Below, piece by piece: positions 14,852-26,622 of a stretch of 64,000 nt of DNA; the stretch's first letter is position 1, and each line of letters opens with the position of its first letter. Position numbers and translations under genes: made by a program. Under the pieces are notes generated by a model that worked only from the letters and a program-made list of their open reading frames with translations, had not been told where the DNA came from and ran no database searches. The DNA comes from an uncultured Parolsenella sp. (GTDB lineage Bacteria > Actinomycetota > Coriobacteriia > Coriobacteriales > Atopobiaceae), in assembly GCA_934668375.1 (NCBI GenBank), contig CAKUNF010000001.1:153691-217690 (forward strand). Direction: 5' to 3'.

Positions 14852-14880
14852 TTGACCACGAACGATTGTTCGCGTATCAT
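14852..14880 (+). promoter_or_regulatory. recA promoter with LexA (SOS) box in the spacer
   Basis: TTGACC (14852-14857), a 17-base spacer, then TATCAT (14875-14880). The spacer contains the perfect palindrome CGAACGATTGTTCG at 14859-14872, matching the Gram-positive SOS box CGAAC-N4-GTTCG. LexA bound here would block RNA polymerase directly. The predicted start point falls about 8 bases before the recA ATG. Confidence 0.9.
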
Positions 14881-14894
14881 GTCGGGAGGAAGCA

Positions 14895-16001
14895 ATGGAA
14901 GGGAACGAGATGGCTAAGTCCAACGCGGTTTCGCGAGAGATTCACGCGCCCACCACGGGCGAAGAGCGCACGAAGATGATCGAGTCCACGACGGCCGAGA
15001 TTGAGAAGAAGTTCGGCAAGGGCGCGATCATGAAGTACGGCGAGGGCGGTCCGGACCTTCACGTCGAGGCCATTCCCACTGGCTCGCTTGCGCTTGACGT
15101 CGCGCTCGGCATTGGCGGCGTTCCCAGGGGCCGCATAGTGGAGATCTATGGCCCCGAGTCCTCGGGCAAGACCACGCTCTCGCTTGAGATCCTCGCGGAG
15201 GCCCAGGCCATGGGCGGCGTCGTTGCCTTCATCGATGCGGAACATGCGCTCGACCCCGGCTATGCCGCTCGTATCGGTGTCGATATCGACGAGGTCCTCA
15301 TCTCGCAGCCGGACACGGGCGAGCAGGCGCTCGAGATTTGCGACATGCTCGTTCGCTCCGGCGCCATCGACGTTGTGGTCATCGACTCTGTTGCCGCCCT
15401 CGTCCCTCGCGCCGAGATTGAGGGAGAGATTGGCGACACCACGGTGGGCCTTCAGGCCCGCCTCATGAGCCAGGCGCTCCGCAAGCTTGCGGGCTCCCTC
15501 TCCAAGTCGAACACCACCTGCATCTTCATCAACCAGCTTCGCGAGAAGATTGGCATCATGTTCGGCAACCCGGAGACCACCCCCGGCGGCCGTGCGCTCA
15601 AGTTCTTCTCTTCCGTTCGCATGGACATTCGCCGCATCGACACGATCAAGCAGAGCGGTGACATCGTGGGCAGCCGCGTTCGCGTCAAGGTCGTCAAGAA
15701 CAAGGTGGCGCCTCCCTTCAAGACGGCCGAGTTCGACATCATGTATGGGACGGGTATCTCCAAGGAGGGCTCGATCCTCGACCTCGGCGTCGAGAACGAG
15801 GTCGTCAACAAGTCCGGTGCCTGGTACACCTACGAGGGCGAGCGCCTCGGACAGGGCAGGGAGGCGGCCAAGGAGTTCCTGCGCTCCAACCCGGACCTCA
15901 GGGATGAGATAGAGTCTCGCGTCCGCGAGGTCGTGGGGCTCGAGCCGCTCGATGGCGTTGAGCCCGTCTCTGAGGCCGGCGCAGAGAACGATGGCGAGTA
16001 G
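14895..16001 (+). CDS. recA: Recombinase RecA
   Basis: The strand-exchange ATPase that also triggers LexA self-cleavage. The 368-residue protein has the Walker A motif GPESSGKTT near residue 85, loop L2 region [22 protein letters not shown] and an acidic C-terminal tail. ATG 14895 is supported by GGGAGGA five bases upstream. An SOS box lies in its promoter and recX follows after a hairpin. Confidence 0.98.
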
Positions 16002-18536: not shown

Positions 18537-19652
18537 ATGAACGATTCATCTCACACTCCAACTGGCGAGGGCACGGCTTCTGCCATGCCCTCGCTTGTCG
18601 ACTTTGTCGCCGCGGTTTCTGGCGACACGGCCGTGCGCGTCGAGGAGTCCCTCGGTGACGGCTTCGTTCGCCTTCGGGTGGGCGAGGCCGAGAGGCGCCA
18701 GGCCAAGCATGACATCCGTTGCATCGAGGACGTCGTCATCGAGATGCTTCGCAACTCGAGAGATGCCGGTGCCCATCGCATCCTCGTTGCCACCTCTCGT
18801 GAGGGTGATGCTCGTTCCCTCGTCATGCTCGATGATGGCTCTGGTGTTCCCGACTCGATGCGCGAGCGCATCTTTGACGCACGCGTCACCTCCAAGCTTG
18901 ACACGGTCCACATGGATCGCTGGGGCGTTCACGGTCGTGGCATGGCGCTCTTCTCGATTCGCGAGAACACGCGCTCGGCTCAGGTCATGGCCTCCGGCAA
19001 GGGGCTCGGTTCGTCCATTCGAATCGAGGCCGATGCCGCGGAGCTTCCCGAGCGCAAGGACCAGAGCACATGGCCGACGGTTGGCAAGGGCGACGAGGGA
19101 CAGAGTCAGCTCAAGGGTCCCCACAACATCATTCGCACGTGCTGCGAGTTTGCACTCGAGGAGCGGCCGAACTGCGACGTCTACCTTGGGTCTGCGGCAG
19201 ATGTCCTCGCCACGGCTCGTGCGCTCGTGGATCAGAGCCCGGATCGCTCGCGCCTGCTCTTCGTCGACGATCCCTCCGAGGTTGCTGTCATCGAGCGGCC
19301 CGCCGTCGCTGGAGATGCCCATGAGCTTGCGGCTATCGCGCAGGACTTGGGGCTTCCCATCTCCGAGCGAACGGCTCATCGAATCCTCGCTGGGCAGATC
19401 AAGCCCCTTCGACCCGTTGCGGCTCGGCTGCTCCACCATGCCGGCACGCCGGGGCCTCAGCAGGTTGACCTCTCGAGGGACCGTCGCGGGCTCAAGATCG
19501 CCCAGGATGACATCGACGAGTTCTCTCGCACGATGGAGCGGGCCTTTGATCTCATCGCTGAGCGCTACTATGTGGGGCTTTCCGGCGAGCCGAGGGTGAG
19601 CGTGACGCGCGACAAGATAACCGTTACATTTGACCTTGAGAAGGAAGACTAG
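18537..19652 (+). CDS. Orphan GHKL (histidine-kinase-like) ATPase
   Basis: A 371-residue soluble protein. Residues ~60-150 form a GHKL ATP-binding fold: N box EMLRNSRDAGA near residue 68, G1 box DDGSGVP near 99, and G2 box GVHGRGMALFSI near 130. There is no DHp/phosphoacceptor histidine domain, no membrane segment and no recognisable MutL or gyrase transducer. The C-terminal ~200 residues (a possible helix-turn-helix-like stretch around ISERTAHRILAGQIKPL) are unassigned. It lies 21 bases after rny and 84 before spoVS, where Bacillus has ymdB. Function is unknown; regulation of RNase Y or SpoVS is speculation from position. Confidence 0.8.
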   Translation: MNDSSHTPTGEGTASAMPSLVDFVAAVSGDTAVRVEESLGDGFVRLRVGEAERRQAKHDIRCIEDVVIEMLRNSRDAGAHRILVATSREGDARSLVMLDDGSGVPDSMRERIFDARVTSKLDTVHMDRWGVHGRGMALFSIRENTRSAQVMASGKGLGSSIRIEADAAELPERKDQSTWPTVGKGDEGQSQLKGPHNIIRTCCEFALEERPNCDVYLGSAADVLATARALVDQSPDRSRLLFVDDPSEVAVIERPAVAGDAHELAAIAQDLGLPISERTAHRILAGQIKPLRPVAARLLHHAGTPGPQQVDLSRDRRGLKIAQDDIDEFSRTMERAFDLIAERYYVGLSGEPRVSVTRDKITVTFDLEKED

Positions 19653-24483: not shown

Positions 24484-25137
24484 CTAAAGGGACCTAAGAA
24501 GGCCGGTCACCCTTCCAAGAATGGTCGGGTTATCCGCATAGATTGGCTCCATCGTGTCATTCTCAGGCTGAAGACGAATGCGGTTCTTCTCTCGGTAGAA
24601 CGTCTTCACCGTGGCGGAGTCGTCGATGAGGGCAACGACAATCTCTCCGTTGTGCGCGTCCTGCTGCTCCTTGACAACGATGTAGTCGCCGTCAAAGATG
24701 CCGGCGTTGATCATTGACTCGCCGCGCACGCGGAGTATGAACGAGCTTGAGTCGCCGATGAGCGAGGTGGGGAGCGTCATGACCTCTTCGACGTTCTGCT
24801 CGGCGAGGATGGGGGTTCCAGCTGCCACCCTGCCCACGACGGGCAGGGTGACCGTCCCGTCATCAACGTTTTGGGAGACGTCTGCTAGTTTTCCGCTCTG
24901 CTGGAATTGCTCGCTACCAGGGCCGGTGATCTCAATCGTTCGAGGCTTGTTGGGATCCCTGCGGATGTAGCCGGCCTTCTCGAGCTTGTGAAGGTGGGAG
25001 TGGACCGTCGAGGGGGACGAGAGTCCAATGGCCGCCCCAATCTCGCGAACTGAGGGCGGATAGCCGTGCGTTGCCGTGAAGCTGCAAATGTAGTCATAGG
25101 CTTGCTGCTGACGTGCGGAAATCTTTACCTCAGACAT
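24484..25137 (-). CDS. lexA: SOS repressor LexA
   Basis: A self-cleaving repressor of 217 residues. The N-terminal winged helix-turn-helix carries GYPPSVREIGAAIGLSSPSTVHSHL. The cleavage site is Ala106-Gly107 (VAAGTP), with catalytic Ser141 (GESM) and Lys178 (TVKTF). ATG 25137 is preceded by AAGGAGGA; an in-frame extension to 25191 runs through the promoter and is rejected. It is divergent from a small membrane-protein gene across three SOS-like boxes. Confidence 0.97.
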   Translation of the reverse strand: MSEVKISARQQQAYDYICSFTATHGYPPSVREIGAAIGLSSPSTVHSHLHKLEKAGYIRRDPNKPRTIEITGPGSEQFQQSGKLADVSQNVDDGTVTLPVVGRVAAGTPILAEQNVEEVMTLPTSLIGDSSSFILRVRGESMINAGIFDGDYIVVKEQQDAHNGEIVVALIDDSATVKTFYREKNRIRLQPENDTMEPIYADNPTILGRVTGLLRSL

Positions 25138-25162
25138 GGCTCCTCCTTTTTGCCTTGAACGT

Positions 25163-25191
25163 ATCATACACGCGTTCGCCCCAAGATTCAA
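25163..25191 (-). promoter_or_regulatory. lexA promoter
   Basis: Read on the minus strand: TTGAAT (25191-25186), 17 bases, TATGAT (25168-25163), giving a ~20-base leader before the lexA ATG. The -35 edge overlaps an SOS-like box at 25190-25201, consistent with autorepression. Confidence 0.8.
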
Positions 25192-25258
25192 ACATTTGTT
25201 CTATTTCTACTTGACACGAACAACTGTACGTAGATACTAGATAGAGAACAACTGTTTG
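25190..25258. promoter_or_regulatory. Three LexA-box-like operators in the lexA divergent region
   Basis: AAACATTTGTTC at 25190-25201, CGAACAACTGTACG at 25217-25230 and AGAACAACTGTTTG at 25245-25258. All fit the GAAC-N4-GTTC pattern with one or two deviations, matching the perfect copy in the recA promoter. The first overlaps the lexA -35; the second and third overlie the rightward promoter. Confidence 0.85.
25211..25238 (+). promoter_or_regulatory. Rightward SOS-type promoter
   Basis: A consensus TTGACA at 25211-25216, 16 bases, then GATACT at 25233-25238 (TACTAG one register further is an alternative). An SOS box fills the spacer. It points to the small gene at 25339 with a leader near 95 bases. 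Confidence 0.65.
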
Positions 25259-25338
25259 CCTGATGAATGCAGATAATTATTGTCCGTTAGCCTTTATATA
25301 ACAGTAGCTGTAGTTATTGCGAGAGAGAGGATGAGTCT

Positions 25339-25635
25339 ATGAGGAATTGTGACATGACCTTTGACGTTGTTGGATCTTCCGCACTTCAGCCCACCTATTC
25401 CAATCCGCGCCTTCATGTCATAGATGGTCGTAGGCCGTCTTCAGATTGCGATCGTGCTACCGCTCGCAACCAGCTCGTCTCTCATGCCATTTCCGAGGCC
25501 GTTCGTTGGAACAGGGAGACGAACCCTTCCACCTGCGTCGCCGCCGCAATTTGCGATCACCAGCAGCTTGCGGGCGAGCTCGGATTTCTTCTCGTCACCG
25601 CCATTGTCGTTATCGGATGGATTCTTCTGTCGTGA
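25339..25635 (+). CDS. Small tail-anchored membrane protein, LexA-controlled (candidate SOS division inhibitor)
   Basis: I do not recognise this 98-residue protein. It has a polar N-terminal ~80 residues with four cysteines (4, 37, 66, 72) and a single C-terminal hydrophobic helix (LGFLLVTAIVVIGWILLS, residues 81-98), so it looks tail-anchored. It is divergent from lexA behind a TTGACA promoter covered by SOS-like boxes. In Bacillus the gene divergent from lexA is yneA, and in Corynebacterium divS sits near lexA; both are SOS cell-division inhibitors. Sequence similarity to either is not evident and no LysM domain is present. ATG 25339 has GAGAGAGG upstream; ATG 25354 is an alternative. Confidence 0.65.
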   Translation: MRNCDMTFDVVGSSALQPTYSNPRLHVIDGRRPSSDCDRATARNQLVSHAISEAVRWNRETNPSTCVAAAICDHQQLAGELGFLLVTAIVVIGWILLS

Positions 25636-25693
25636 CGTAATTTGGGCGTTTTGGCTGCTATCTGGACGAATCCATAGCTGCAGCGTATGGTAT

Positions 25694-25717
25694 GTATCGC
25701 CAGTGTTTCAGCGATAC
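25694..25717 (+). promoter_or_regulatory. Inverted repeat at the nrdR ribosome-binding site
   Basis: Perfect 7-base arms GTATCGC / GCGATAC separated by 10 bases, ending directly at the GGAGGA of nrdR. It could be an operator or an RNA hairpin limiting translation. It does not look like the usual NrdR box, which comes in tandem pairs upstream of nrd operons. Confidence 0.4.
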
Positions 25718-25727
25718 GGAGGAAGCC

Positions 25728-26180
25728 ATGCGCTGTCCCAAATGTGGGTGCGAGGAGTCCAAGGTCGTGGATTCAAGACCCGCCGAGAACAATGACTCGA
25801 TCAGGCGCCGCCGCGAGTGCGTTGCCTGTGGCTTTAGATTTACCACGTACGAGCGTAGGGAGGAGCTTCCCCTTGTCGTGCTCAAACACGACGGGTCAAA
25901 GGAGCCTTTTGACCGCGAGAAGCTCATGCGTGGCCTTGTCCGTGCAACCGTCAAGCGCGACATACCCATCGATGTGCTCGACAAGCTCATCGGAGACATC
26001 GAGAGCGAACTCAGGGATCACGGAACGACCGAGGTTGATTCGAGCGCGTTGGGCGAGATGGTCCTTCACCGTCTCGCGGATATCGATAAGGTTGCCTACG
26101 TCCGCTTTGCCTCGGTGTATCGAGACTTCAAGGACATCGAGGAGTTCTCTGCCGAGCTGAGGAGGCTCTCTGGTGAATAG
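25728..26180 (+). CDS. nrdR: Transcriptional repressor NrdR
   Basis: An ATP/dATP-sensing repressor of ribonucleotide reductase genes. The 150 residues have a zinc ribbon (CPKC at 3-6, CVAC at 31-34) followed by FRFTTYERRE and an ATP-cone (VVLKHDGSKEPFDREKL). ATG 25728 follows CGGAGGA; the longer open frame is leader. It overlaps dut by eight bases, linking dNTP-pool control with dUTP removal, directly beside lexA. Confidence 0.96.
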   Translation: MRCPKCGCEESKVVDSRPAENNDSIRRRRECVACGFRFTTYERREELPLVVLKHDGSKEPFDREKLMRGLVRATVKRDIPIDVLDKLIGDIESELRDHGTTEVDSSALGEMVLHRLADIDKVAYVRFASVYRDFKDIEEFSAELRRLSGE

Positions 26181-26622
26181 CGACATCGTCAATCTTCCCA
26201 TCAAGCGCCTCGATTCCGAGGTAGAGCTCCCCGCATACGCCTATGAGGGCGATGCTGGTCTCGATCTTCGCTCGAACGAGGACGTTGTGTTGGCTCCGCT
26301 CGAGAGGCGTCTCATCTCAACTGGCCTCGCCATTGCGATTCCCGATGGATACGCTGGCTTTGTTCAGCCGAGAAGTGGGCTCGCCCTTCGCGAGGGATTG
26401 TCCATGGCCAATACGCCCGGCTTGATCGACGCTCATTATCGTGGCGAGCTTAAGGTCTGTGCCGTCAACCTTGACCCCAAGCATTCCATTCACGTGGAGC
26501 GTGGCGAGAGAATCGCACAGCTTGTCATTCAGAGGGTGCCGACCGTTCATCTCTGCGAGGTTGATGAGCTGGACAAGACCGACAGGGGCAGCGGTGGCTT
26601 TGGCTCGAGCGGCGTCAATTAG
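26173..26622 (+). CDS. dut: dUTP diphosphatase
   Basis: A trimeric dUTPase of 149 residues that hydrolyses dUTP to dUMP and keeps uracil out of DNA. Motifs in order: AYEGDAGLDL (1), PRSGLALREG (2), NTPGLIDAHYRGEL (3), RIAQLVI (4) and the C-terminal P-loop-like RGSGGFGSSG (5). The GTG start lies inside the end of nrdR, with an 8-base overlap. Confidence 0.95.
   Translation: MNSDIVNLPIKRLDSEVELPAYAYEGDAGLDLRSNEDVVLAPLERRLISTGLAIAIPDGYAGFVQPRSGLALREGLSMANTPGLIDAHYRGELKVCAVNLDPKHSIHVERGERIAQLVIQRVPTVHLCEVDELDKTDRGSGGFGSSGVN

Follow-up and report, generated by a model that had tools for sequence, protein, structure and literature searches.

Beside lexA in an uncultured Parolsenella sp. lies a small divergent gene whose 98-residue, tail-anchored product is almost certainly, as profile comparisons indicate, an orthologue of the LysM-bearing protein that occupies the same slot in other Atopobiaceae, and one that has lost its LysM domain. 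The kind is known, that of SOS inhibitors encoded at the side of lexA; what is new is an orthologue with neither a C-terminus outside the cell nor the LysM, which is the domain to which the activity is ascribed. The LexA boxes, the slot between lexA and nrdR, the common ancestry and the inherited loss of LysM all emerge from computation on a stretch of 64,000 nucleotides (hereafter the window) and on related genomes. We hypothesize, and consider it somewhat probable, that the product is an SOS-controlled division-checkpoint protein of the YneA/ChiZ type that acts without LysM, through its helix and cytoplasmic side alone, which would make it a candidate inhibitor of division.

The lexA–nrdR slot and its LexA boxes

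The features of the slot are listed in Table 1. The 98-codon gene is followed after 92 bases by nrdR, and then by a dut-like open reading frame (ORF) recognised by eye from its translation. In this region (25635-26622) nrdR lies on the same strand as the 98-codon gene, and the dut-like ORF overlaps the nrdR end. Given this spacing, the shared strand and the overlap with dut, the SOS promoter might read into genes of nucleotide supply. Elsewhere in the window, a 371-aa ORF at 18537-19652 lies between rny-like and miaB-like genes, and its N-terminal half looks by eye like a GHKL-type ATPase.

Table 1. Coordinates of the features discussed, in positions of the window.
Feature	Position	Strand	Evidence
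lexA, SOS repressor, 217 aa	24484..25137	-	NCBIfam TIGR00498, 229.8 bits; Pfam LexA_DNA_bind and Peptidase_S24
Putative LysM-less YneA/ChiZ-type protein, 98 aa, tail-anchored	25339..25635	+	Profile comparison, slot, two-way genome searches
nrdR, downstream boundary of the slot	25728..26180	+	NCBIfam TIGR00244, 196.7 bits
LexA box 1	25189..25202		8/10 matches to CGAAC-N4-GTTCG; matrix 21.2, window rank 1
LexA box 2, in spacer of the small gene's promoter-like site	25217..25230		9/10; matrix 20.9, rank 2
LexA box 3, just 3' of the small gene's -10-like hexamer	25245..25258		8/10; matrix 17.6, rank 4
Weak fourth LexA-box-like site, between box 1 and lexA	25165..25178		8/10; matrix 11.0
Perfect LexA box upstream of recA ORF (14895-16001)	14859..14872		10/10; matrix rank 3; internal control
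Promoter-like hexamers toward the small gene, TTGACA-16-GATACT	25211..25238	+	Consensus scan 10/12
Promoter-like hexamers toward lexA, TTGAAT-17-TATGAT	25163..25191	-	Consensus scan 9/12; box 1 over -35
N-terminal motif GSSALxPxxxxxRLxVIDGRR, codons 12-32	25372..25434	+	hhalign alignments; common to LysM-bearing relatives
Juxtamembrane segment, codons 50-78	25486..25572	+	S52, WNR 57-59, C66, QQL 75-77 invariant in 12/12
Predicted single membrane helix, codons 79-97, then one residue and stop	25573..25629	+	Best 19-residue hydropathy window 2.28

Sites resembling LexA boxes were scored with a symmetrised matrix derived from the lexA upstream regions of other genomes (336 box-like sites, the lineage of the window excluded). 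The three boxes beside lexA, of 14 bases each and spaced 28 bases, stand clear of the rest: the lowest-scoring of them has 17.6 and the fifth-best matrix site in the window 11.0, and none of ten Markov-simulated 64-kb sequences attained 17.6. The recA box is placed 22 bases 5' of the first possible start of recA, which was recognised by eye from its translation. A plain count of 8 matches in 10 gives 34 sites within the 64-kb window, so it is the matrix and the clustering that carry the case for the boxes. Across the 133 lexA upstream stretches (of at most 210 bases) taken from the family, sites with at least 8 of 10 matches number 352, against 12.4 expected from two-base-block shuffles; three of these stretches (L226, L228 and L231) have no such site. 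In G068 and G069, two genomes that also carry the short form, all four sites keep the window's offset from lexA within one base.

A sequence-only reading of the same DNA had placed three SOS-like boxes in the roughly 200 bases across which lexA and the small gene diverge, and the ORFs and the box matrix agree with it: its boxes at 25217-25230 and 25245-25258 are recovered exactly, and its third, at 25190-25201, is the core of box 1. It had also noted one box over the lexA -35 and another in the spacer of a TTGACA promoter; the consensus scan sees the same arrangement, in hexamer pairs whose number (2 observed versus 0.7 ± 0.8 in shuffles) is not significant alone. To judge from these sites, LexA very probably controls the small gene that diverges from its own.

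Slot occupants in the Atopobiaceae

Among 140 genomes of the family that were searched, lexA was found at E ≤ 1e-40 in 132, which together with the window gives 133 upstream regions. The nrdR gene is on the expected strand in 126 of them, and a protein with a transmembrane segment and LysM (TM+LysM) fills the slot in 120. The remaining 13 comprise three short forms without LysM (the window, G069 at L100 and G068 at L101), five empty slots in which nrdR is 225-327 bases from lexA (L222, L223, L224, L227 and L228), four regions at contig ends (L176, L181, L214 and L231), and one, L155, with neither nrdR nor the slot gene found within 1.5 kb. The genomes of L222, L223, L224, L227, L228 and L155 (G041, G042, G034, G043, G053 and G062, respectively) were searched with the full-length profile, and none contains a relative at E ≤ 0.01. 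The five empty slots, together with the absence of the gene from G062, indicate that the checkpoint is dispensable in the family.

The NCBIfam model NF010723, 'cell division suppressor protein YneA', matches all 120 TM+LysM proteins at E ≤ 0.01, with a best E of 1.4e-17. The next NCBIfam model matches 64, and Pfam LysM is found at E ≤ 0.01 in 116. The family LysM model used for the slot count drew on 93 of these proteins, and in its control 5 of 120 shuffled proteins gave E < 1, while the weakest accepted real protein has an E of 4.8e-9. One LysM-bearing member, taken in full, scores 57.4 bits with the YneA model, just under the curated 60, and in the relative L102 the model spans residues 99-174, which include the LysM at 126-173; the designation 'YneA-type' thus depends on the combination of LysM, slot and boxes. 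Ancestrally, the slot was occupied by a YneA/ChiZ-type protein. The sequence-only reading had held that the position of the gene, divergent from lexA, and its regulation through LexA boxes match those of known inhibitors, and it had proposed looking for homologues beside lexA with the boxes kept in related genomes; the match in position and regulation stands computationally, and both slot and boxes are conserved in the relatives.

Orthology with the LysM-bearing slot proteins

A search with the 98-aa protein as a single sequence retrieves, apart from the protein itself, just one cluster, of 86% identity. None of the Pfam or NCBIfam models scores above its cut-off, no NCBIfam family appears even at E ≤ 1, and there is no direct match to NF010723; PHROGs gives one weak match (E 0.037), and solved structures give none. 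Single-sequence searches in the genomes of 18 relatives produced matches at E ≤ 1 in nine, the best at 0.005, which we read as noise. An unrelated new family, the candidate suggested by such searches, was overturned by profiles.

By hhalign, four short sequences align with the LysM-trimmed N-termini of 118 relatives at a score of 52 (E 3.1e-10), compared with a maximum of 20.8 in 60 column shuffles in which the first 78 columns were kept apart from the rest; with 12 short sequences against 120 full-length ones the E is 9.5e-11. The four-sequence short profile was also run against 396 genomes of the class, up to 12 candidates per genome being scored. It has strong matches in G068 and G069 and, elsewhere, matches in three places (G045, G044 and G012, E about 1e-4), all inside the lexA slot and within residues 3–41, 3–45 and 5–47, respectively; other family genomes in the draw gave no match, which marks the sensitivity of this search, at 12 candidates per genome, as limited. 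In the opposite direction, the full-length profile, searched genome-wide in G068 and G069, has the short gene as its best match (E 3.9e-4 and 1.2e-5), aligning over model positions 7–87 and 5–82 of 157, that is, the N-terminus and the helix; in G068 the match extends past the stop codon. This profile has a second, weaker match elsewhere in each genome (E 0.007 in G068, 1.7e-4 in G069), and in the LysM-bearing control G048 there is likewise a second, probably spurious match (E 0.008).

The profile comparison, the genome searches in both directions, the same slot and the same boxes are the grounds on which we regard the short protein as an orthologue. The sequence-only reading had called it unrecognised and new, with a sequence that does not match the known inhibitors, and this part of it gives way to the hhalign and two-way results.

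Loss of the LysM domain

The proteins of the window, G068 and G069 end 0–2 residues beyond the helix. A profile search of 5.8 billion proteins, limited to candidates of about 54–171 aa, a range into which many LysM forms would have fallen, yielded ten clusters (93–98 aa), of which the 93-aa one is the window's protein trimmed. With G068 and G069 added and the trimmed copy left out, the set numbers 12 sequences, each of 97–98 aa; their alignment needs a single end gap, and they reach down to 36% identity to the window protein. Three of them (the window, G068 and G069) have a known genomic context, in each case beside lexA. In a tree of 125 rows built from LexA and NrdR these three form one clade (support 1.0), the branching order inside the clade having a support of 0.09. 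Six-frame searches of the whole G068 and G069 genomes found no match to Pfam LysM, and the same search applied to four LysM-bearing relatives found exactly one in each, in the slot; in the window's 64 kb there is no credible LysM, the best E in an unfiltered search being 0.034. From 12 sequences with the same end, one clade and two LysM-free genomes, it follows that the truncation is inherited.

Pfam LysM at E ≤ 0.01 is missing from 48 of 149 genomes of the class, so that its absence genome-wide is not rare and the argument rests on loss within a conserved slot. In the same set of Coriobacteriia genomes, 95 of the 101 with Pfam LysM have exactly one, which in the four genomes checked is the lexA-slot protein. 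Relocation of a LysM protein to another part of the genome was rejected by the whole-genome LysM and full-length-profile searches of G068 and G069. Since it lacks LysM, the window protein is classed here as an orthologue from which the domain has been lost, and not as a standard YneA/ChiZ-type member.

Conservation and selection in the short form

AlphaFold2, run with the 12 sequences, predicts a helix at residues 64-97, with a mean pLDDT of 94 for residues 81-90 and 93 for residues 91-98; the overall mean is 55.6, residues 1-49 are of low confidence, and a helix at 40-61 is poorly supported. Invariant in all 12 sequences are R2-N3, G12, S14-A15-L16, P18, V27-I28, G30, S52 and W57-N58-R59 in the first half, and C66, Q75-Q76-L77, G79-E80-L81-G82-F83, L85-V86, A88 and V90 in the second, so that the conserved segment next to the membrane can be written WNR…C…QQLxGELGF. 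None of the 120 LysM-bearing relatives has the string QQLxGE, or WNR ahead of the helix. The four cysteines and single C-terminal hydrophobic helix described in the sequence-only reading are right for the window protein, and of these cysteines only C66 is kept in 12 of 12. From motif to helix the short form has 47-50 residues; a greater length as a trait unique to it was rejected, as at least 45 residues are present in 9 of the 81 relatives that the motif pattern matched (39 of the 120 were unmatched).

Among the window, G068 and G069, identity is 27-36% in residues 1-11, 48-62% in the motif (12-32), 0-6% in residues 33-49, 41-62% in the juxtamembrane segment (50-78) and 58-68% in the helix (79-97). 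By the NG86 method, dN/dS in the same three genomes is 0.35-0.45 for the small gene, 0.02-0.05 for lexA and about 0.01 for nrdR, values that are rough at a dS of 0.8 to 1.7. The small gene, with a dN/dS about ten times that of lexA, is thus constrained but fast-evolving, in rough terms. In neutral, substitution-only simulations at 60% identity the frame stays open in 6.6%, which makes the open frame alone weak evidence of selection; the uneven conservation along the protein is more telling.

Comparison with known SOS division inhibitors

The closest comparison is with the LysM-bearing Atopobiaceae proteins of the same slot, which share the divergence from lexA, the LexA boxes, the N-terminal motif (consensus GxxAL...LIEGG) and the single helix. 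They differ in having at least 67 residues beyond the helix, with LysM, whereas the short form has 0-2, and the WNR...C...QQLxGELGF segment is found in the short form alone.

YneA has almost no cytoplasmic part; SidA, which is far shorter, is not known to carry a LysM or to be related. Like the window protein, YneA of Bacillus subtilis is a lexA neighbour with a single helix, and it is the YneA model that all 120 relatives match. It differs in a reported need for LysM, by which it binds the wall and in whose absence division is not blocked; the YneA helix by itself is reported to reach the division site and to bind FtsW TM7 (PMC13396833). SidA of Caulobacter crescentus, from a different bacterial phylum, is likewise an SOS-induced membrane inhibitor, with a predicted contact with FtsW TM7 (PMC13396833). 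ChiZ (Rv2719c) of Mycobacterium tuberculosis, by its description, shares with the window protein a disordered cytoplasmic N-terminus, one helix and induction by DNA damage, and differs in a periplasmic linker and a 53-residue LysM; its disordered N-terminus and helix are reported to be enough for filamentation and Z-ring mislocalisation (PMC7355643), and a review states that its LysM does not appear necessary (PMC3989709). The architecture of that truncation is the natural state of the window protein.

SOS inhibitors without LysM are already known in SosA and DivS, both described with an outside C-terminus. SosA of Staphylococcus aureus is described as small, adjacent to lexA, with a single helix and no LysM, like the window protein, but its helix lies in the N-terminal half, whereas that of the short form is at the end, and major truncations of its outside C-terminus abolish activity (PMC6851548). 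Such an outside segment amounts to 0-2 residues in the window, G068 and G069, with the topology taken from the LysM-bearing relatives. DivS of Corynebacterium glutamicum is, by description, an SOS-induced division suppressor near lexA without LysM, and differs in its predicted outside C-terminus. The sequence-only reading had treated YneA, DivS and ChiZ as non-homologous; this holds for DivS, which is stated to have no significant homology to YneA (PMC3989709), and fails for ChiZ, which is said to resemble YneA. Among the literature matches listed, none describes a natural LysM-less YneA/ChiZ-type orthologue. The accessible text of a study on the SOS regulon of gut metagenomes (PMC3998124) contains neither LysM nor Coriobacteri-, and YneA and DivS appear there in the references only.

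Proposed mechanism and alternatives

The LysM of the relatives must be outside the cell, so the N-terminus would be inside and the short form would end at the outer face of the membrane. In the mechanism that we propose, RecA would trigger cleavage of LexA, upon which the small protein would be made and inserted as a tail-anchored protein, of which the N-terminal ~75 residues would lie in the cytoplasm. The helix would join the divisome in the membrane, where its most likely contact would be FtsW, as reported for YneA, an assignment by analogy that we hold tentatively; the FtsW/RodA family has three matches each in G068 and G069. The cytoplasmic juxtamembrane segment, and not a wall-binding domain, would then hold back septal wall synthesis or placement of the Z-ring. 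This juxtamembrane action is modelled on the reported activity of the ChiZ N-terminus and helix, a truncation result that reportedly originates in Vadrevu 2011. A more specific proposal, which we regard as speculative, is that the braking step has shifted from the exterior of the cell to its interior, with WNR…C…QQLxGELGF acting on the cytoplasmic face of the divisome and wall binding no longer needed. The protease CtpA degrades YneA and SosA. Peptidase_S41, the kind to which CtpA belongs, was found in none of 14 Atopobiaceae genomes, LysM-bearing ones included, so any turnover must take another route than it does for YneA and SosA; co-loss of CtpA as a trait of the short-form lineage was dropped, as this absence is uninformative on that lineage.

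By analogy with the ChiZ truncation reported to be sufficient, whose architecture it shares, the short form is favoured as a working inhibitor, and we lean toward division inhibition having been retained. Against it are the loss of both the LysM of YneA and the outside C-terminus of SosA, each needed in its own system, the fast evolution of the gene and its dispensability in the family. Some of these points feed the main rival, which we consider unlikely though it deserves serious weight: that the loss of LysM, essential for YneA (PMC13396833), ended division inhibition and left a decaying remnant, persisting since the loss is recent, since the remnant is harmless or since it helps transcription or translation reach nrdR. 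The fast evolution of the small gene and its complete loss from several other family genomes would fit such decay; however, 12 sequences down to 36% identity keep their length, C66, WNR and QQLxGELGF, identity contrasts steeply between residues 33-49 (0-6%) and the juxtamembrane segment and helix (41-68%), and the LexA boxes keep their offsets.

The retained checkpoint function that we prefer must also be set against a different SOS function, that of an induced membrane adaptor away from the divisome, tethering a repair, nucleoid or protease factor. The lack of WNR and QQLxGE in all 120 relatives could mean that the partner is new, but slot, boxes, N-terminal motif and helix are those of the YneA-type family, and with no independent evidence for another partner we find this improbable. 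The reading with which the analysis began, of a new and unrelated SOS division inhibitor that came to lie at lexA by chance, draws on the lack of any family over cut-off and on a single-sequence search that ends at an 86%-identical cluster; profile-profile homology far above the shuffles, and genome matches in the orthologous slot in both directions, make it very improbable, and the gene keeps its status as a candidate division inhibitor by position, boxes and orthology. That a LysM tail is concealed by a frameshift or an assembly error might be suspected because the window gene looks shortened next to its relatives, but merely 92 bases separate it from nrdR, the same end recurs in 12 sequences, and the six-frame searches give no LysM in G068 and G069 and a best E of 0.034 in the window, which leaves such an error a negligible chance.

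Implications for the family

Published work is split on which part of these proteins is active, LysM in the case of YneA versus N-terminus and helix in that of ChiZ. A lineage that is naturally without LysM, and that keeps the slot, the boxes and the membrane-proximal core, offers a direct way to test this. Should the short form inhibit division, the minimal inhibitor would be about 50 residues, a juxtamembrane segment and a helix, and a brake acting from inside the cell would, if true, be a new mechanism of inhibition that arose within a LysM-type family.
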